A DNA stretch of 32,770 bases, taken from positions 1 to 32,770 of the forward strand of contig JAIOPP010000121.1 in assembly GCA_021413845.1 (NCBI GenBank), in the 5' to 3' direction. This document shows, piece after piece, positions 735 through 17,092 of this stretch (position 1 is its first letter; the number at the start of each line of letters is the position of its first letter). Origin of the DNA: Planctomycetia bacterium (GTDB lineage Bacteria > Planctomycetota > Planctomycetia > Pirellulales > PNKZ01). The notes under the pieces are model-generated. The model did no database searches. It was not told the DNA's origin and was given only the letters and a program-made list of their open reading frames with translations. The translations under genes and the position numbers were made by a program.

Positions 735-1124
735 TTACCAAACTCGTGTTACGCCATATCGGTCGAAGATCGGGTCGGCGCTGAGAAGCGTCAACTCTTC
801 CCGGAGCGACTGAGCAACCAAGAGCCGATCGAAAGGATCGCCGTGATGTCGCGGCAGAGTTTCGACATCGACGACGTGCGTTAGATCGATGGTCAACAGC
901 TTAAAGTTATTCCGAGCGATCTCACGCGGTAGAAAAATCTCGCATGGTTCCCCGAGTTGCAGCTTGCCCGATCCGCTCTTGATCGCGATTTCCCAGCAAG
1001 CGGCCAGGCTGATCAGTTTGAGATTGCGAGGCTCTTCGATAAGCGATTTGGCAACGCCGCTGAGGCGAGGATGGTTCCATACGAACCAAAGAAAAGCGTG
1101 AGTATCGAGCAATAAGCTCGTCAC
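735..1124 (-). CDS. vapC: PIN-domain ribonuclease toxin, VapC type
   Basis: The 129-residue protein has the full PIN-domain pattern: D7 in LLLDTHAF, E45 in ACWEIAIKSG, D96 and D99 in HHGDPFDRLLVAQ, and D117 in LLSADPIFDRYG. These acidic residues normally hold Mg2+ or Mn2+ in the active site of VapC toxins, which cleave tRNA or rRNA. The WEIAIKSG and GDPFDRLL motifs match the subgroup often paired with Phd-type antitoxins. Its ATG (1124-1122) overlaps the antitoxin stop by four bases (ATGA), so the two genes are translationally coupled with the antitoxin first, the usual order. No catalytic residue is missing, so it is probably active. The specific RNA target cannot be told. Confidence 0.88.
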   Translation of the reverse strand: MTSLLLDTHAFLWFVWNHPRLSGVAKSLIEEPRNLKLISLAACWEIAIKSGSGKLQLGEPCEIFLPREIARNNFKLLTIDLTHVVDVETLPRHHGDPFDRLLVAQSLREELTLLSADPIFDRYGVTRVW

Positions 1125-1351
1125 TCCATATACTCCCGAAACTCGTCCAACGGTTCATCGAAATCATCCGCCATCCAATGAGGAAGATGTGCGGCGCTTC
1201 CGGCTTTGCACGGCCACTCGCCTGCGGTCGAACGGGTCAGCACAGCCAGCGGTTGGTCGTTCTGCAGAATGACGAGCTGCTCGCCGGGTAAGAGTCCGGA
1301 AATGATCTCCGGCAAGCGCGCTTGCGCTTCTTGAATGTTGACGGTAACCAT
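1121..1351 (-). CDS. Phd/YefM-type antitoxin partner of VapC
   Basis: The open frame could begin at 1399, but the ATG at 1351 gives a clean 76-residue protein starting MVTVNIQEAQARLPEII. This is the typical Phd-like N-terminus, where a short beta strand and helix (NIQEAQARL) form the DNA-binding dimer, followed by GEQLVILQNDQPLAVL. The acidic C-terminal tail (DDFDEPLDEFREYME) is expected to bind and block the toxin. The stop overlaps the toxin ATG. By family behaviour the antitoxin, alone or with the toxin, would repress this operon. The extra 16 N-terminal residues available upstream do not look antitoxin-like and were left out. Confidence 0.82.
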   Translation of the reverse strand: MVTVNIQEAQARLPEIISGLLPGEQLVILQNDQPLAVLTRSTAGEWPCKAGSAAHLPHWMADDFDEPLDEFREYME

Positions 1352-1520
1352 AATGAACTCACAGTTTGAATGCTCGGCGCATCGGAGCCACGGCTGCATT
1401 ATACCTCAATTTCACTATGCCTTTCAAATCCGCCGGCTCAAGTCACCCATTGGCTCCGCAGCGGCTCGCGAACATAATATCCGGCTCGGCTTACCGGCAA
1501 CGTGTCTGGAGATCGTCGGC

Positions 1521-2621
1521 GTGGAACCGCTTGATTTTACTCGCTTGAAGGTCTTCCCGCTCGCGGCGCGCAAGAGTTTGTCGCGGGTCCAAGACATTTT
1601 GATCGATCCGGACGCTCCGCCGAAGCCCTGCGACGCGCACAATCTCGAACTCATCGCGATGTGCGCCGAACGGATGCTCGCCGCGCGCCGGCGCGACGCC
1701 TCGATCATGCTCATCTACGGGGCGCATCTTTTGCGCAACGGCACCGCGCGCATCATGGAACGGCTCATGGCCCGCGGACTCGTCACGCATCTCGCCACGA
1801 ACGGGGCCGGCACGATCCACGATTGGGAATTCTCCTGGTTCGGCGAATCGTGCGAGAGCGTGCGCATGAACGTCTCCGAGGGAACCTTCGGCGCTTGGCA
1901 TGAGACGGCCTTGCATATCCATCTCGCTCTGCTGGCCGGCGGCGTTCGTCGCGAAGGCTACGGTCGCTCGCTCGGTCGCCTGATTATCGAAGACGGCGTC
2001 ACGCTGCCGACCATCGCGGAGCTCGAAACGGCGATTCGCGCCGAGCCGGGCCACCCGCTCACGGCGGCCCGAGCCGATCTCTTGCGCGCGATGCAAGTGC
2101 ATGGCTTGGCGCCGGGCCGCACCGAGGTGCTGCATCGTTGGAAGGAAGCGTCGATCGTGGCTCAGGCGTTTCGCCACGGCGTGACGATGACCGTGCATCC
2201 CGGCATCGGCTACGACATCATCTCGAACCATCCGATCTTCAACGGCGCCGTGATCGGTCGCGGTGCCGAGACCGATTTCAAACTGTTCGGCGCGAGCGTC
2301 GAAGGGCTCGACGGCGGCGTGGTCATGTCGGTCGGCTCGGCGATCATGGGCCCGCAGGTGTTCGAGAAGAGCCTAAGCTGCGTGAACAATCTGCGCATGC
2401 AAGACGGTCGGCCGACGGTGAGCGACCATTCTTTCTTCGTCGTCGATCTGCAAGACGGCGGGCGCTGGGACTGGTCGCAAGGGGAGCCGCCGAAGACGAA
2501 CCCCGCTTATTATCTCCGCTTCTGCAAGAGCTTCGCCCGCATGGGAGGAACGATGCAGTACCTGCAATGCGACAACGCCCTCTTCCTCCACCACCTTTAT
2601 CATAAACTGCGCGACGCATGA
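1521..2621 (+). CDS. Deoxyhypusine-synthase-like protein
   Basis: I chose the GTG at 1521, preceded by GGAG nine bases upstream, giving 366 residues. The frame stays open back to 1335, but that part is antisense to the antitoxin and reads like noise. The segments YGAHLLRNGTARIMERLMARG (66-86, joined here to show order only) and LATNGAGTIHDWE (91-103) resemble bacterial and archaeal proteins annotated as deoxyhypusine-synthase family, with a Rossmann-like NAD-binding fold. Later conserved-looking blocks are VHPGIGYDII (225-234) and VGSAIMGPQVFEKSLS (271-286). The catalytic-lysine motif of true eukaryotic deoxyhypusine synthase (GGGxxKH) is not seen, so hypusine formation is unlikely. The stop overlaps the start of the PfkB kinase by four bases, implying coupled expression and a shared pathway. 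The substrate is unknown. Confidence 0.6.
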   Translation: MEPLDFTRLKVFPLAARKSLSRVQDILIDPDAPPKPCDAHNLELIAMCAERMLAARRRDASIMLIYGAHLLRNGTARIMERLMARGLVTHLATNGAGTIHDWEFSWFGESCESVRMNVSEGTFGAWHETALHIHLALLAGGVRREGYGRSLGRLIIEDGVTLPTIAELETAIRAEPGHPLTAARADLLRAMQVHGLAPGRTEVLHRWKEASIVAQAFRHGVTMTVHPGIGYDIISNHPIFNGAVIGRGAETDFKLFGASVEGLDGGVVMSVGSAIMGPQVFEKSLSCVNNLRMQDGRPTVSDHSFFVVDLQDGGRWDWSQGEPPKTNPAYYLRFCKSFARMGGTMQYLQCDNALFLHHLYHKLRDA

Positions 2622-3712
2622 TGTCCGACCGCACGACCTCCGAGCGTATGACTCCGGCCCGCTTCGACGACCTCACGGCGCGCTATGCGTCGCTGCGCAT
2701 CGCGCTCGTCGGAGATTTTTGCCTCGATCGCTATCTCGAAATCGATCCCGCGCGCGAAGAGCTTTCGATCGAAACCGGTCGCGCCGTTCACAACGTCGTC
2801 CGCGTGCGCAGTCAGCCGGGAGGCGCGGGAACCATTCTTAACAATCTCGCGGCGCTCGGCATCGGCCGCATCCACGCGATCGGCTTCTCCGGCGACGACG
2901 GCGAGGGCTTCGAGCTTCGCCGCGCGTTGGCCGAACGCCGTACGCCCGACGGCCGCGCTTGCGTCGACCTCACGCACTTCCGCACCTCAACCGCGCGCCG
3001 CACGTTCACGTATTGCAAGCCGCTCGTCGTCGAAGCGGGCCGCGATCCCGTCGAGCTGAACCGGCTCGACAGCAAAAACTGGACGCCGACGCCGCGCGAC
3101 TTGGAAGACGCGTTGATCGACGCCGTCGCAAGCTTGCGCGACGAAGTCGATGCCGTGATCCTGCTCGATCAAGTCGACGTTCCGGAAACGGGAGTCGTGA
3201 CGCAACGAGTGCGCGAAGCGGTCGCGGAGACGTTTGCCTCGCGTCCCGAAATCGTCGTGCTGGCCGACAGCCGGCGCGGACTGAGCGAGTTCCCGAAACT
3301 CGGCTTCAAGATGAACGCCGCGGAATTGCACCGCATGAGCGAGGTCCGACTCGATACGAACGCAGCCGATCTCGACGCCGTGCGCGCCGCCGGCGCAGCG
3401 CTGGCCCAAGCCAACGGCAAGCCGGTGTTCGTCACTTTGGCCGAGCGCGGCATCGTCGGGGCGTTGCCGAATCACGACGTGTCAGGCGGCGCGGCGGTCG
3501 AGCACGTTCCCGCGCTGCCGGTGCGTGGGGCGATCGACGTCGTCGGCGCCGGCGACTCCGTGACGGCGAACCTCTCGGCCGCGCTCGCCGCAGGCTCGAC
3601 GATCCGCGAAGCCCTGGAGCTGGCGATGGCCGGCGCATCGCTCGTCGTACATCAACTCGGCACGACCGGCACGGCGAACGTCGCCGAGTTGCGAGCGTTG
3701 TTATTCCGCTAA
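2618..3712 (+). CDS. PfkB-family sugar kinase, RfaE/HldE-like
   Basis: This 364-residue kinase has the N-terminal strand and substrate motif ALVGDFCLDRYLEID (29-43), a glycine-rich segment QPGGAGTILNNLAALG, and the PfkB signature IDVVGAGDSVTANLSAA with catalytic base D313. The layout and the VGDFCLDRY opening are closest to the kinase half of HldE, which phosphorylates heptose 7-phosphate. The nucleotidyltransferase half is absent, so it could act on another sugar or a carbohydrate-like metabolite. Its ATG overlaps the stop of the DHS-like gene (ATGA), so the two are coupled. No obvious terminator follows before the convergent amidohydrolase gene 31 bp away. The kinase fold is certain; the substrate is not. 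Confidence 0.85.
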   Translation: MMSDRTTSERMTPARFDDLTARYASLRIALVGDFCLDRYLEIDPAREELSIETGRAVHNVVRVRSQPGGAGTILNNLAALGIGRIHAIGFSGDDGEGFELRRALAERRTPDGRACVDLTHFRTSTARRTFTYCKPLVVEAGRDPVELNRLDSKNWTPTPRDLEDALIDAVASLRDEVDAVILLDQVDVPETGVVTQRVREAVAETFASRPEIVVLADSRRGLSEFPKLGFKMNAAELHRMSEVRLDTNAADLDAVRAAGAALAQANGKPVFVTLAERGIVGALPNHDVSGGAAVEHVPALPVRGAIDVVGAGDSVTANLSAALAAGSTIREALELAMAGASLVVHQLGTTGTANVAELRALLFR

Positions 3713-11178: not shown

Positions 11179-12642
<1,464 letters not shown>

Positions 12643-12662
12643 GAACAAATTGCCTTCATCAA

Positions 12663-12690
12663 CTGACCACTGACCACCGATCACCGACCA
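12663..12690 (+). repeat. Four tandem 7-bp repeats between the paired genes
   Basis: Heptamers CTGACCA, CTGACCA, CCGATCA and CCGACCA follow each other without gaps, with the start of a fifth (CTG). They fill most of the 54-bp gap between the DUF1553 stop and the DUF1501 start. No function is evident; it looks like a short slippage-derived minisatellite. Confidence 0.8.
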
Positions 12691-12696
12691 CTGCCG

Positions 12697-15600
12697 TCAA
12701 TCCACGTAAATAAACTCGTTCGCATTCAACAGCACATGGCAAAAGTCGATCCACGCTTGTCGCTCGGGAGCGATATCGCTCATCTTAGCGTCGCGGGCAC
12801 GGAAGCGAATGTCGAGCTTGTTCGCCGAGGTGTCTTTGAACACGCCGGCTTGCGGCTCGAACTCCCAGAAGCCGACCGTCGTCGGGCCGAGCTGTTCGGC
12901 GGTGAGCAGTAGTTGTTCGTTCGTCAGCGCAACGTTCGACAATCGCACGTCGTCGACGAGCCCGTCCCAGACTTTGCTGTAAACTCGGTCGCCGCAGCCG
13001 CCGATGGTGAACATCCCGCGCTCGCCCGGGATCTTCACCACGCGATGCGCATTCTGCGACGTGAGCAGCGGCTCGTCGTCGTTCGAAAGATCTTTCGCAT
13101 AGAACGTCACGCCGGTCGGGCCTTGTTCGCCGAGTTTCACCGTGCAGGCGACGAAGTACGGCTTGTTCAGTTGCACGTTGAGGCTCGAAAAGATCGGCTC
13201 GTACGTCAGCTGCTCGTAAGCGTCGGTCCCCCAAAGTTGCAACACGAGCATCTGCGGCTTGAACTGCGACTTGCGACTCGTCACCCCGAACGACCAGCCC
13301 GGGCTCTGCTTGTCGCCGTTCCAGTGTGCGGCGATCGTGCGCACGCTGGCGTCGTCGTAGGTCGAGCGCAGCACGACGAACGCCTCGACGGTGAAATCGC
13401 CGACCGGAAGCTTGGAGCTCTCCGGCACATCGGCTCGGCGCATCGGGCCTTGCGGTTCGAGCACGACCGCGCTGCCGTCGCGAAACGGAATTTTGTCGAG
13501 CTTCACGACCGGCGGAGGAACGTCGTCGGGCCGAATCCGTTTGGCTTGCTCGACGAGAAAGCCGGCGGCGGCGCGGCGCTCGTCGTCACTCGGCAAGCGC
13601 CCGAACGCGAGGCGAAACGCCGCTTCGACCTTACCGATCGCGTCGCTGCTCGCATGCTCTTCCTCCACGCGACGGGCTAGCGCTTCGGCTTGCTCGAGCA
13701 TATAGCCGCTGTTGATCATCAGCAGCGCTTGCGTCGGAGTCGTCGTCACGTTGCGGTTCGCCGCGCTTTGAAATCCTTCCGGAGCGTCGAACACATCCAA
13801 CAGCGGATCGCGCGTATTGCGCAATACGCGGCTATAGATCGAGCGGCGCGGTTTCGAGAAATCGACCGCCGGTCCGCCGGCCGTGAGGTCGAGCTTTCCC
13901 GTCGCCGCTAAGAGCGCGTCGCGCACTTGTTCGGCGTCGAGTCGACGAGTCGACATGCGCCACAGCAGCCGGTTCTCCGGATCGACGACGAGCGGATCGG
14001 CTCCCTCTCCCGTCGGGAGAGGGCTGGGGTGAGGGGCACCCCTCATCCGGCCTCCGGCCACCTTCTCCCGACGGGAGAAGGCATTCGCGCCATGAGCCGC
14101 CTGTTGATACGTTTGCGAAGTCATCATCAGCCGATGCATCCGCTTGATGCCCCAGCCCTCCTTCACGAACTGCGCAGCAAGCCAATCGAGCAGCTCCGGA
14201 TGAGTCGGCGGTTCGCCTAGGCGGCCGAAGTCGCTGCTCGTCGCCGTGAGGCCGCGACCGAAATGATACTGCCAGATCCGATTGACCATCACGCGCGCCG
14301 TGAGCGGATTCTCCGGACGAACGAGCCAATTCGCCAAAGCCGTGCGGCGCCCGGTCGAGTCGAGTCCGGCCGGCGGCATGATGACAGGCGCCTTTTCGCC
14401 GAGCACTTCCAAGAACGCCGGCGCGACGGGATCGTTCCCCTTCTTCGGGATGAATACCGGCGGCGCTTCGCGGCCGACATCGCGCACGATCGGCGCCGAC
14501 GGCAACGGCTCAGGCTTCTGCGCGGCGTGCGTCGCCAGTTGCTTCCGCAGATCGACGAGCTTTTGTTTTTTCGCGTCCTTGAAGTTTCGATCGAGCCGAT
14601 CGAACTCATACGTCACTTGCCGATACGCCAACGCACCGAGTTGTTTTTCGATCGCCGTTCGCTTGTCGAGCGGGCGGGCGAGAATCTCGCGAATGTCTTC
14701 GGGAAATTTTTCCACCGCGCCGCGCTCCACCTTCTCGCGAACCGGTGCCTCGAGCGCTTCCAACTCGGCCAAGATCACGGCGGTTTTCGCGCGCCATGCC
14801 GCCATGCGCCGCTCATGCGAGGCTAGTTCCACTTGGGTTGCGAGCGGTAGGTCGTCGTGCGGCAAGATCGGCGCGAGAAAAGCTTGCAGTCGATAGTAGT
14901 CTTTCTGCAAGATCGGATCGAACTTATGGTCGTGACACCGTGCGCAGCCCATCCCGAGGCCGAGAAAAACATCGGCGGTGACATCCGTGACGTCGTTGAG
15001 CATGTTCGCCCATTGGCCGCGGACGTCGCGATTGTTGTACTCGTAAATTCCGAGTCGCAGGAACGAAGTGGCGAGCTGCGCTTCCGGATCGTCGGGCGCA
15101 AGCTCATCGCCGGCGAGTTGCTCGCGCACGAAACGATCGTACGGCTTGTCGTCGTTGAACGCGCGAATCACGTAATCGCGATAGCGCCACGCTTCGGCCC
15201 GATAGTCGTCGATGCGAAATCCGTCCGACTCGGCATAGCGGACCAGATCGAGCCAATGCCGCGCCCAGCGTTCGCCATACCGCGGGCTCGCCAACAGCCG
15301 ATCGATCAACTTCTCGAACGCCTCGGGCGAGTCGTCGGCAACGAACGCATCGACCTCGTCCGGCGACGGCGGCAAGCCGACGAGATCGAAATAGGCACGG
15401 CGAATCAACACCGCACGTTCGGCCGGCGGCGAGGGAGCGAGCTTCGCGCTCTCGAGCTTGGCGCGCACGAACCGGTCGATCGGATTCCGCGACCAAGCGG
15501 CAGCGGCGACCTCCGGCAGCGCCGGCTCGCGCACCGGCTGGAACGCCCAATAGCGCCGATCTTCGTCGGTGATTTTTCCGCGCGGACGCGCCGCCGATTT

Positions 15601-16100: not shown

Positions 16101-16133
16101 GGCCTGAGGAAAATCCGCTGGTGAATTCAGGCC
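16101..16133 (-). terminator. Weak hairpin at the end of epmA
   Basis: GGCCTGA (16101-16107) can pair with TCAGGCC (16127-16133) across 19 bases. Read on the minus strand it spans the epmA stop codon and is followed by TGTTTC. The stem has only seven pairs and the T-run is poor, so this is a weak terminator candidate. Confidence 0.25.
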
Positions 16134-17092
16134 CGTTCGATCGGGAAAGCGATCACGTCCGTGATCTCGCGCTTCCCCGCCACGAGCATCAGTAGGCGAT
16201 CGAAGCCGAGCGCGCAGCCGGTGCAGGGGGGAAGCCCGGCGCGCATGGCTTCGACGAGCCGGCTCTCGACCGGCAGCGTCGACTTGCCGTCGGCGGCGCG
16301 CAGCCGATTGTTTTCCACATTCCGCGCGACCAGCGCTTCGGCATCGAGCAGTTCATGATAGCCGTTCGCCAGCTCGATGCCGTCGACATAGAGTTCGAAC
16401 CGTTCGGCAACCGGCAACGCTTCGGCTCGCACCTGCGCCAGCGCCGCTTGGCTCGGCGGATAGTCGCACAAGATCGTCGGGCTCGAAGCACCCAACCGGG
16501 GCTCGATCAATTCCGTCAGCAAGAGATCGAGCCACGCATCGCGATCCGTGTCGTCGCCGAAGGCCGCGGCGGCATTCGGAAGCCGCGCACGCGCCGCTTG
16601 CCGCAGGTCGGCGTCGGAGATCACAAGCGGATCGAGACCGACGTACGTCTCGAACGCGTTGCGATAGGTCAGCCGCTGGGCAGTGCCGCGGTTGAGAATC
16701 GCTGCGCAGAGATCGCTGAGAAGTTGCATTCCGGCGGTGTAGTCGTCGCCGCGGCGATACCACTCGACGAGCGTAAACTCAGGGTTGTGCCTGCGGCCGC
16801 GCTCCCCTTGGCGGAAGACCCGAGCGACTTGATAGATCGCTTCGCCGCCGGCCGCCATGAGTCGCTTCATGGCAAACTCCGGCGAGGTCTGCAAGTACAT
16901 CGTGCGCGGCTTGCCGAGGCCGGTCAGTTCGGTCGTGAGGGGGTCGAGATGCCGATCGACGACCGTATCGGCCGAAAGAATCGGGGTCTCGACTTCTAAG
17001 AACCCGCGTGCCTCGAAGAACGCGCGGACTTGCTTCAACAACTCCGCGCGGGCTCGCAACAGACTCCAATCGGCGGTCGGAAGAAACGACAT
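16127..17092 (-). CDS. epmA: EF-P beta-lysylation ligase EpmA (GenX/PoxA)
   Basis: EpmA attaches (R)-beta-lysine to a conserved lysine of elongation factor P, which helps ribosomes through proline stretches. The 321-residue protein is a class II lysyl-tRNA-synthetase-like catalytic core with no anticodon-binding domain, as expected (E. coli EpmA is about 325). All three class II motifs are seen: FLEVETPILS (motif 1), VFRQGERGRRHNPEFTLVEW (motif 2) and GCALGFDRLLML (motif 3). YLQTSPEFAMKRL and ELANGYHEL are also typical. It lies 30 bp downstream of the GH16 gene on the same strand. EF-P and EpmB, which makes the beta-lysine, are not in this window. The product would be relevant to translating proline-rich proteins such as the one at 7902. 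Confidence 0.93.
   Translation of the reverse strand: MSFLPTADWSLLRARAELLKQVRAFFEARGFLEVETPILSADTVVDRHLDPLTTELTGLGKPRTMYLQTSPEFAMKRLMAAGGEAIYQVARVFRQGERGRRHNPEFTLVEWYRRGDDYTAGMQLLSDLCAAILNRGTAQRLTYRNAFETYVGLDPLVISDADLRQAARARLPNAAAAFGDDTDRDAWLDLLLTELIEPRLGASSPTILCDYPPSQAALAQVRAEALPVAERFELYVDGIELANGYHELLDAEALVARNVENNRLRAADGKSTLPVESRLVEAMRAGLPPCTGCALGFDRLLMLVAGKREITDVIAFPIERA

Follow-up and report, generated by a model that had tools for sequence, protein, structure and literature searches.

A GSU2086-family protein coupled to an HldA-type PfkB kinase in a planctomycete: candidate enzymes of a heptose-type sugar-phosphate pathway

Two overlapping genes in the window (the whole 32,770-nucleotide stretch of Planctomycetia DNA analysed here) encode a GSU2086-family protein, which we call ORF1, and a PfkB kinase of the heptose-7-phosphate-kinase (HldA) type, and the pairing of these genes exceeds chance. 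We propose, at a probability of roughly 0.42, that both act in a heptose-type sugar-phosphate pathway that includes an epimerase-like step dependent on NAD; this chemistry we infer. We describe the pairing with an HldA-type kinase and the exchange of a shorter form of the family with HldD; the family itself had already been named, as NCBIfam NF052581.

The gene pair in the window

The reading frame of ORF1 is open from an ATG at 1335 to the stop at 2621. We take the GTG at 1521 as the likely start, since the similarity of relatives begins there, a Pfam search of the stretch 1335-1520 gave no match, and a GGAG lies at a suitable spacing (Table 1). Promoter and terminator scans around the pair found nothing decisive. 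The first-pass annotation had reported a four-base overlap of the two genes, which the shared ATGA bears out. The coupling goes beyond chance because a kinase lies adjacent on the same strand in 46 of 80 named GSU2086 loci and a four-base overlap is also possible in 27 of these 46, where the 80 are the best of at least 587 confirmed stretches and are biased to the long form. Adjacency is thus not confined to the source genome, and the pair recurs in several bacterial phyla among the matches listed.

Table 1. Positions of the two genes and associated sites in the window
Feature	Position	Strand	Description
ORF1: GSU2086-family protein, long form	1521..2621	+	GTG start, 366 aa; DHS/AgrE-OCD fold; probably depends on NAD
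PfkB kinase of heptose-7-phosphate-kinase (HldA) type	2618..3712	+	364 aa, ATG start; without nucleotidyltransferase half
ATGA stop/start overlap coupling ORF1 and kinase	2618..2621	+	sequence
GGAG, likely ribosome-binding site for GTG 1521	1508..1511	+	sequence, putative; ends 9 bases 5' of GTG
Weak promoter-like site TTGGCT-17-CATAAT, 9/12	1450..1478	+	sequence scan; candidate only

Family and fold of ORF1 and its kinase

ORF1 belongs to the GSU2086 family (NF052581; 319.2 bits over residues 3-361, curated cut-off 250), for which a literature search, with subscription journals and preprints outside its scope, found no described function. Its AlphaFold (AF2) model has a pLDDT of 94.7. In structure comparison the best fold match is AgrE (6lrf; Z 19.9, rmsd 3.4, 220 residues aligned), followed by deoxyhypusine synthase (DHS; 8put; Z 17.8, rmsd 4.0, 264 residues aligned). 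The earlier description of the first protein as DHS-like therefore stands for the fold, and with it the pair as such, though it had overlooked both the family name and AgrE as the better match. The fold closest to ORF1 is the ornithine cyclodeaminase (OCD) domain of AgrE/ArgZ (PF21570, TIGR00300), but ORF1 scores 21.8 bits against PF21570, below the Pfam cut-off of 27, and the sequences can be aligned in their first part only, where a profile alignment places NGAGTIHDWE against GNALATHDIE.

Although the folds are alike, we rejected ORF1 as a deoxyhypusine synthase: Pfam DS (PF01916) gave no match at E 0.01, and the GGGxxK(H/N) and SWGK motifs are absent. In profile alignments ORF1 reads SVGSAIMGPQ at the GGGxxKH region and YYLRFCK at the SWGK region, the C-terminal alignment being weak. 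We take the catalytic lysine of DHS to sit in SWGK, not in GGGxxKH. In a global profile alignment, unreliable in its C-terminal part, that lysine falls beside the invariant R333 of ORF1. The first-pass annotation was correct that ORF1 is without GGGxxKH, but not in treating this as the lysine motif, the catalytic lysine of human DHS being Lys329 (PMC7780104). Its argument that hypusine is not a bacterial modification turned out to be beside the point, as the source genome has a separate DHS-family gene on another contig (C166; PF01916 318 bits, motifs GGGVPKN and SSWGK) whose product scores as 1,9-bis(guanidino)-5-aza-nonane synthase, a bis-guanidino-polyamine synthase. An ArgZ-like protein is also present in this genome. 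HldD and ORF1 come from separate families: HldD is an Epimerase (PF01370), and its profile TIGR02197 does not match ORF1 at E 0.01.

Across the clades of the family, 28 columns are invariant in 30 of 30 rows, including H69, H100, E103, E112, H226, D232, H237, D252, K283, D309 and R333. K336 is present in all 42 long-form rows and retained by intermediate forms, but is missing from 12 of 13 HldE-type rows (alignment A1); this split suggests that the clades may differ in chemistry, which argues against the heptose reading. Relative to other GSU2086 proteins, the long form in the window carries an insert of about 45 residues (E103-S211 spacing of 108 versus 62-63), and long forms make up their own clade with support 100/100 in a tree of 43 hand-picked rows. 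A scan of viral contigs with ORF1 and a tblastn search of phages with one short-form protein each gave no match.

The kinase matches PF00294 (PfkB) at 75.7 bits. Its nearest structure is the heptose-7-phosphate kinase HldA (4e84, Z 34.5) and its best NCBIfam profile is TIGR02198, so that HldA and the HldE kinase domain are its closest relatives in fold and profile, yet the score of 126.7 bits is under the TIGR02198 cut-off of 345. The catalytic GAGD motif (G310-A-G-D313) is invariant in 34 of 34 rows. Unlike HldA/HldE, the kinase has a motif of its own, LNRLDSKNW, and there is no HldE-like nucleotidyltransferase half: across its 364 residues Pfam gives only PfkB, with rfaE_dom_II not matched, as the earlier annotation had read it.

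Partner genes and the exchange of the short form with HldD

Among the same best 80 of at least 587 stretches, a HAD phosphatase neighbours GSU2086 in 40 loci and HAD and kinase occur together in 36, and in some loci a GmhA-like SIS isomerase is added. Of the 60 well-flanked loci among this best 80, 21 have neither kinase nor HAD nearby, all 5 acidobacterial named loci being among those without either, which counts against the heptose reading. Phylum labels of the 80 were assigned by hand from record titles, in some cases from general taxonomy, and 9 loci have titles that give no phylum. ORFs in the locus maps were picked automatically, with some labels (such as D+KIN in L046) being long-open-frame artefacts. 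Of the 19 genomes with the kinase, 16 also have the HAD, where 1.6 would be expected, and this holds when the genes are dispersed; in the source genome the HAD gene (contig C133) and the SIS gene (C128) are both separated from the pair. Partner HADs matched no NCBIfam family, GmhB included (L079 at E 0.001, L159 at 1e-8, L194 at 1e-10). The best family for the partner SIS proteins is gmhA, but their TIGR00441 scores of 115.9 bits (L084) and 101.8 bits (C128) are below the cut-off of 209.45. The earlier picture of a coupled pair thus holds, but it had overlooked a frequent third and occasional fourth operon gene, as well as short forms in the place of HldD.

In 294 sampled Planctomycetota genomes, the GSU2086 family exceeds the NF052581 cut-off in 141. 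As short we counted every copy that scored above this cut-off and did not belong to the 21 long ones, a definition that pools the HldE-type clade with intermediate forms. Each genome search scored few candidates (6 to 8), so the absences are lower bounds. At least 150 HldE places were listed, and adjacency covers 80 of 126 short, 11 of 21 long and 52 of 75 HldD copies. Of the 80 testable short-form copies, 46 have hldE as the next gene downstream, and the long form adjoins HldE in 0 of 11. Short form and HldD occur together in 6 of 294 genomes versus 31.1 expected, a near exclusion with p 5.5e-5 in a within-family permutation. Neither control, DHS or ArgZ, shows such an exclusion (p 0.46 and 0.55). 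The long form shows none either, with HldD in 3 of 21 long-form genomes (5.4 expected, p 0.3). Since the long form neither excludes HldD nor stands beside HldE in its testable copies, its substrate may differ from that of the short form, from which it is also set apart by a partner kinase without the nucleotidyltransferase half.

At the level of operons, the short form and HldD share a slot: in family f33 the operon LpxK-LpxL-X-HldE has a GSU2086 protein as X in 4 genomes and HldD in 3. Against the heptose reading, short form and HldD are both present in 3 of 7 genomes of family f22. HldE occurs without HldD in 174 genomes, 109 of them with the short form; as 65 of 243 HldE-positive genomes have neither, the exchange cannot account for all. 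The HldE of one locus (L199) was detected by both profile and tblastn. In PMC5585712 (Table 1 of that paper), Geobacter transposon values are -3.1 for hldE, -3.2 for GSU2086 and -3.7 log2 for gmhA, and the numbering GSU2085-2087 for hldE, GSU2086 and gmhA implies that short form and hldE are adjacent there too. These phenotypes could reflect polar effects in one operon.

A heptose-type pathway and its alternatives

In the pathway we propose, a GmhA-like SIS isomerase would provide an aldose phosphate, and the kinase would phosphorylate O-1 of the sugar phosphate, as HldA and HldE do on heptose 7-phosphate. A HAD phosphatase would strip the distal phosphate to give a sugar 1-phosphate. With NAD bound in its DHS/OCD fold, the GSU2086-family protein may act on the same sugar phosphate in a redox-neutral, epimerase-like step, in which a CH-OH group would be transiently oxidised and then re-reduced; the order of these steps, like the extension from short to long form, is provisional. 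Favouring this reading are the NAD-enzyme fold of AgrE-OCD and DHS, the invariant residues, the HldA-like kinase, the HAD and SIS partners, the exclusion and slot sharing between short form and HldD, and the Geobacter data. HldD itself, the ADP-heptose 6-epimerase, is NAD-dependent in E. coli (PMC10948575). The source genome speaks against the heptose reading, since it encodes HldD as well as an HldE-like kinase-nucleotidyltransferase that lies next to GT9 and LpxK. The earlier suggestion of two consecutive steps on one metabolite, perhaps in the making of an envelope sugar, gains from the HAD and GmhA-like partners and from relatives in lipid A/heptose operons, though its chemistry is something we still infer.

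A rival reading is a catabolic cassette that feeds a sugar or polyol, once imported, to central metabolism, with the kinase phosphorylating, the DHS-fold enzyme epimerising or oxidising, and SIS and HAD handling phosphate esters. A Chloroflexota plasmid carries GntR, a sugar phosphate isomerase/epimerase, Gfo/Idh/MocA, DeoC, a sugar ABC transporter, Gfo/Idh/MocA, HAD, GSU2086, kinase and SIS in one operon of catabolic appearance, which weighs against the heptose reading and where the isomerase resembles IolE and the oxidoreductases IolG below cut-offs and DeoC is above its cut-off. At locus L033 a kinase-HAD fusion and GSU2086 are accompanied by a GntR regulator, SIS and a protein of the GlcNAc 2-epimerase family, and a kinase with no nucleotidyltransferase seen also favours catabolism. 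However, most mapped loci contain at least two of the three genes HAD, GSU2086 and kinase, with few other close same-strand neighbours, which were annotated in part; short forms are located in lipid A/heptose operons; and on a Solidesulfovibrio plasmid a nucleotidyltransferase-kinase fusion stands beside GSU2086 with sialic/pseudaminic acid genes close by. We therefore consider the cassette rather unlikely. At the other extreme, two unrelated housekeeping genes overlapping by accident would fit the 23 of 60 well-flanked loci (among the best 80 of at least 587) where the kinase is non-adjacent, but adjacency across several phyla and co-occurrence above chance make this highly improbable.

The fold could instead signal amine chemistry, the enzyme making or breaking a C-N bond in an amino- or alkylamino-sugar before the kinase acts on the product. 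OCD, one of the two nearest fold families, acts on amines through NAD. So does DHS, the other (PMC7780104), and both the invariance of K283 and the retention of K336 would suit such a role. We judge it quite improbable, as ORF1 has neither DHS motif, the partner genes are sugar-phosphate enzymes and the short form swaps place with an epimerase. Improbable to a similar or slightly greater degree is that the short form replaces HldD in genomes but not in reaction, a different heptose being made for which HldD is unneeded. Exclusion and slot sharing do show alternative use and not the same chemistry, and other heptoses exist, HygP (an isomerase), GmhB and HldE yielding an ADP-D-altro-heptose (PMC10948575); but in family f33 operons of both kinds share the neighbours LpxK, LpxL and HldE.

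Extending the heptose-type reading, we put forward a broader version that is tentative and, taken whole, doubtful. The GSU2086 family may represent a novel type of sugar epimerase that uses NAD on the DHS/OCD fold. Its short form may stand in for HldD in heptose/LPS synthesis, as a non-homologous enzyme whose role has gone unrecognised. The long form, together with HldA-type kinase, HAD and GmhA-like isomerase, may form a second, undescribed route to a heptose-like sugar 1-phosphate common to Planctomycetota, Verrucomicrobiota and other phyla. ADP-heptoses serve as precursors of LPS and also act as immune signals (PMC10948575). If the proposal is true, a large family so far without a function would be given one, heptose completion would be accounted for in many HldE bacteria that have no HldD, and a fold known from amine chemistry would also serve sugars.

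Gene pair and neighbourhood

The frame of ORF1, the first gene of the pair, is open already from ATG 1335, with likeness to relatives setting in at GTG 1521, nine bases downstream of a GGAG. ATGA is common to the ORF1 stop and the kinase start. ORF1 is a member of the NCBIfam family NF052581, "GSU2086 family protein". At E 0.01 its sole Pfam match is an ArgZ-like C-terminal Rossmann domain, sub-threshold at 21.8 bits (cut-off 27), and the Pfam deoxyhypusine synthase (DHS) family DS gave no match at that value. The kinase reaches 126.7 of 345 bits on the kinase domain profile of HldE, the heptose kinase-nucleotidyltransferase, far under cut-off.

Gene pair and other features in the window
Feature	Position	Strand	Remarks
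ORF1, GSU2086-family protein	1521-2621	+	GTG start; NF052581 319.2 bits (cut-off 250)
Kinase, PfkB	2618-3712	+	ATG start; PF00294 match 75.7 bits
PIN-domain protein and preceding 92-aa ORF	735-1399	-	PF01850; just upstream of the gene pair
EpmA, EF-P beta-lysine ligase	16127-17092	-	TIGR00462 362.9 bits (cut-off 286.9)

The PIN-domain gene is preceded by a 92-aa ORF without a Pfam match, whose internal part resembles a Phd/VapB-type antitoxin by eye; the two may possibly form a toxin-antitoxin pair. EpmA represents the bacterial counterpart to eIF5A modification; its gene is ∼13 kb away from that of the DHS-fold protein, without sign of a link.

A scan of genome contigs yielded 80 named loci, the best 80 of 587 confirmed stretches. 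Going by record titles, most are Verrucomicrobiota (35) or Planctomycetota (19), nine have titles that name no phylum, and the remainder come from Acidobacteriota, Lentisphaerota, Latescibacterota, Gemmatimonadota, Armatimonadota, Spirochaeta, one Bacteroidetes MAG and one Proteobacteria MAG. The coupling proposed in the first-pass annotation is borne out and extended: among these best 80, a same-strand kinase adjoins the GSU2086 gene in 46, a HAD-family phosphatase (HAD) in 40, and both in 36. For the 60 flanked by 1.5 kb or more at both ends, the counts are 37 kinase, 31 HAD, 29 both and 21 neither. By phylum within the best 80, the kinase adjoins in 23/35 Verrucomicrobiota, 11/19 Planctomycetota, 2/2 Latescibacterota, 1/2 Gemmatimonadota, 1/1 Spirochaeta and 0/5 Acidobacteriota. 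Of the 46 adjacent pairs, 27 could share the four-base overlap. The five acidobacterial loci (L088, L095, L100, L103, L107) carry long-form GSU2086 genes, as in the window, with kinase or HAD nearby in none.

The pair is conserved and often part of something larger. Across 119 loci (the 80 named and 39 from planctomycete genomes), HAD, GSU2086, kinase is the most frequent arrangement; HAD, kinase, GSU2086 occurs in L138, L140 and L145, and a fused kinase-HAD protein, both domains confirmed, directly precedes the GSU2086 gene in L033, L038, L144 and L150. Several loci, such as L075, L083, L084, L130 and L131, also hold a GmhA-like SIS isomerase (SIS), whose best family is gmhA at a score under cut-off. 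In L144, an ORF (12060-13334) that matches the C-terminal domain of DNA polymerase III delta lies amid glycosyl hydrolase genes downstream of this cassette, probably by chance gene order. L048 and L051 form a divergent NF052581 branch (length 1.35) with its own extra alignment segment; their upstream genes clustered with HAD, but Pfam gave nothing at 1e-4 for the stretches examined.

Of 294 Planctomycetota genomes, 19 have the kinase type (E <= 1e-60), 25 the HAD type (E <= 1e-50) and 21 the long form (E <= 1e-60). With kinship ignored, kinase and HAD types coincide in 16 genomes (1.6 expected, p 1.8e-17); the long form is found with the HAD type in 14 (against 1.8 expected) and with the kinase type in 9 (against 1.4). 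Cassette parts thus tend to be kept by the same genome even where they are dispersed: G152 has HAD, kinase and SIS side by side ∼570 kb from its GSU2086 gene.

Predicted folds and clades

The AlphaFold2 model of ORF1 (alignment of 42 relatives; pLDDT 94.7, pTM 0.92) is nearest to AgrE/ArgZ among solved structures (Z 19.9, rmsd 3.4, 220 residues). Next come 3c2q, an archaeal protein of LOR/SDH type (Z 18.1; Foldseek E 5.7e-8), and the deoxyhypusine synthases, whose best Z is 17.8 (rmsd 4.0, 264 residues); as regards fold, "DHS-like" was therefore right. The DHS motifs GGGxxK and SWGK, the latter presumably containing Lys329 of the human enzyme, were not found in ORF1 by profile alignment. That lysine is the catalytic residue (PMC7780104). 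The kinase model (pLDDT 93.7) is closest to Burkholderia HldA (Z 34.5, rmsd 2.9, 307 residues), with pseudouridine kinase the next protein (Z 30.7).

A tree of 43 hand-chosen rows resolves the long clade (support 100/100), an intermediate clade of seven rows (96/90), some with the cassette, and a 17-row clade containing HldE-associated forms (100/99). The 28 columns invariant in a 30-row alignment spanning the three make a common chemistry plausible. A difference in substrate or chemistry is no less plausible, given the long form's insert of ∼45 residues and given that K336, present in 18/30 rows (those of the long and intermediate forms plus a few more), is missing in 12 of 13 HldE-type rows.

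Proposed pathway and its alternatives

In OCD, NAD shuttles hydride internally. It has the same role in DHS (PMC7780104), and HldD, the ADP-heptose 6-epimerase, is NAD-dependent (PMC10948575) with a net redox-neutral reaction. By this analogy, the economical view is that the GSU2086 family would be NAD-dependent epimerases of heptose-type sugars. We place a probability of roughly 0.4 on the window pair serving a heptose-type sugar-phosphate pathway with an NAD-dependent, epimerase-like step. The GSU2086-family protein would epimerise the sugar, more likely as a sugar phosphate than as an ADP-sugar, since the cassette kinase has no nucleotidyltransferase half. The envelope-sugar pathway initially proposed is supported in part: the DHS-like fold stands, and that both proteins act on one substrate is what we infer. 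A wider scheme, in which the family is a new NAD-dependent sugar epimerase on the DHS/OCD fold, the short form replacing HldD and the long form working in a second kinase/HAD/SIS pathway, is more tentative.

Whether the sugar handled by the window pair is a heptose is less certain, because HldE-like and HldD genes are already present in the genome and because of the cassette's context on a Chloroflexota plasmid. There, HAD, GSU2086, kinase and SIS follow a sugar ABC transporter, with distant IolE-/IolG-like genes and DeoC, which favours catabolism at that locus. A cassette channelling an imported sugar or polyol into central metabolism is nevertheless a rather unlikely general account: a Solidesulfovibrio plasmid has, in this order, a fusion of nucleotidyltransferase and kinase (L160, 8441-9970; domains in reverse order to HldE), GSU2086 and SIS beside sialic/pseudaminic acid genes, favouring biosynthesis. 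Less probable still is amine chemistry as in DHS/OCD, a C-N bond being formed or broken before the kinase acts on the product, with which the retention of K336 in long and intermediate forms would agree.

Elsewhere in the window's genome, a DHS-family protein (L162, G000:C166:2928-3824; PF01916 318 bits) falls by score in the 1,9-bis(guanidino)-5-aza-nonane synthase family, at 606.5 bits (cut-off 500), and an ArgZ-like protein reaches 349.6 bits. Contig C8 encodes an HldE-like protein that combines a PfkB with a cytidylyltransferase-like domain (kinase domain 313.2 bits, under the cut-off of 345) and adjoins a GT9 heptosyltransferase-family protein and LpxK, and HldD lies on C20 (337.7 bits, above its cut-off). 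The window pair is therefore neither the organism's DHS nor its most HldE-like gene. Cassette-type HAD (50% identity to that of L079) and SIS (38% identity) lie on C133 and C128.

The short form and HldD

Geobacter GSU2085, GSU2086 and GSU2087 are annotated hldE, hypothetical and gmhA, and their transposon insertions gave like log2 ratios on electrodes (-3.1, -3.2 and -3.7; PMC5585712 Table 1), to which polar effects could contribute. For these reasons we compared the family with HldD and HldE. Among the 294 genomes, NF052581 is above cut-off in 141, HldD in 75, and HldE is found at E 1e-55 in 243. The short form (above cut-off, outside the 21 long-form places) occurs in 122 and coincides with HldD in 6, against 31.1 expected (p 5.9e-13): G018, G164 and G191 (3/7 of family f22), G171, G065 and G053, the last without an HldE match at E 1e-55. 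HldE-positive genomes at least 90% complete comprise 72 with the short form only, 30 with HldD only, 1 with both and 34 with neither. Within-family permutation agrees (4 vs 9.8 expected, p 5.5e-5), and a weak test over 86 families points the same way (8 vs 13.1, p 0.017). In 99 genomes, the fold cousins DHS (p 0.46) and ArgZ (p 0.55), taken as controls, do not exclude HldD, whereas the short form does (p 3.9e-4); the long form shows no exclusion in the full set (3 vs 5.4, p 0.3). Neither HldD nor the short form is present in 65/243 HldE-positive genomes, which counts against exchange as a complete account; these would either use D,D-heptose as such or have a further epimerase.

Gene order was compared in genomes with an HldE place among the matches listed. 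On that basis, 46/80 short copies (23 families), 11/52 HldD copies (3 families) and 0/11 long copies immediately precede HldE on its own strand. Seven f33 genomes share an operon of LpxK, LpxL, X and HldE, in which X is the GSU2086 protein in G030, G092, G140 and G183 and the unrelated HldD in G240, G268 and G293; profiles confirmed the families for G140 and G240, including HldE of G240. In the other three f33 genomes with HldD, it lies apart from HldE. Such an exchange is what one would see had an unrelated gene taken over the role of another, though it does not prove that the chemistry is identical. The finding of greatest value is not in the window itself; it is the short form, a candidate substitute for HldD that had gone unrecognised.
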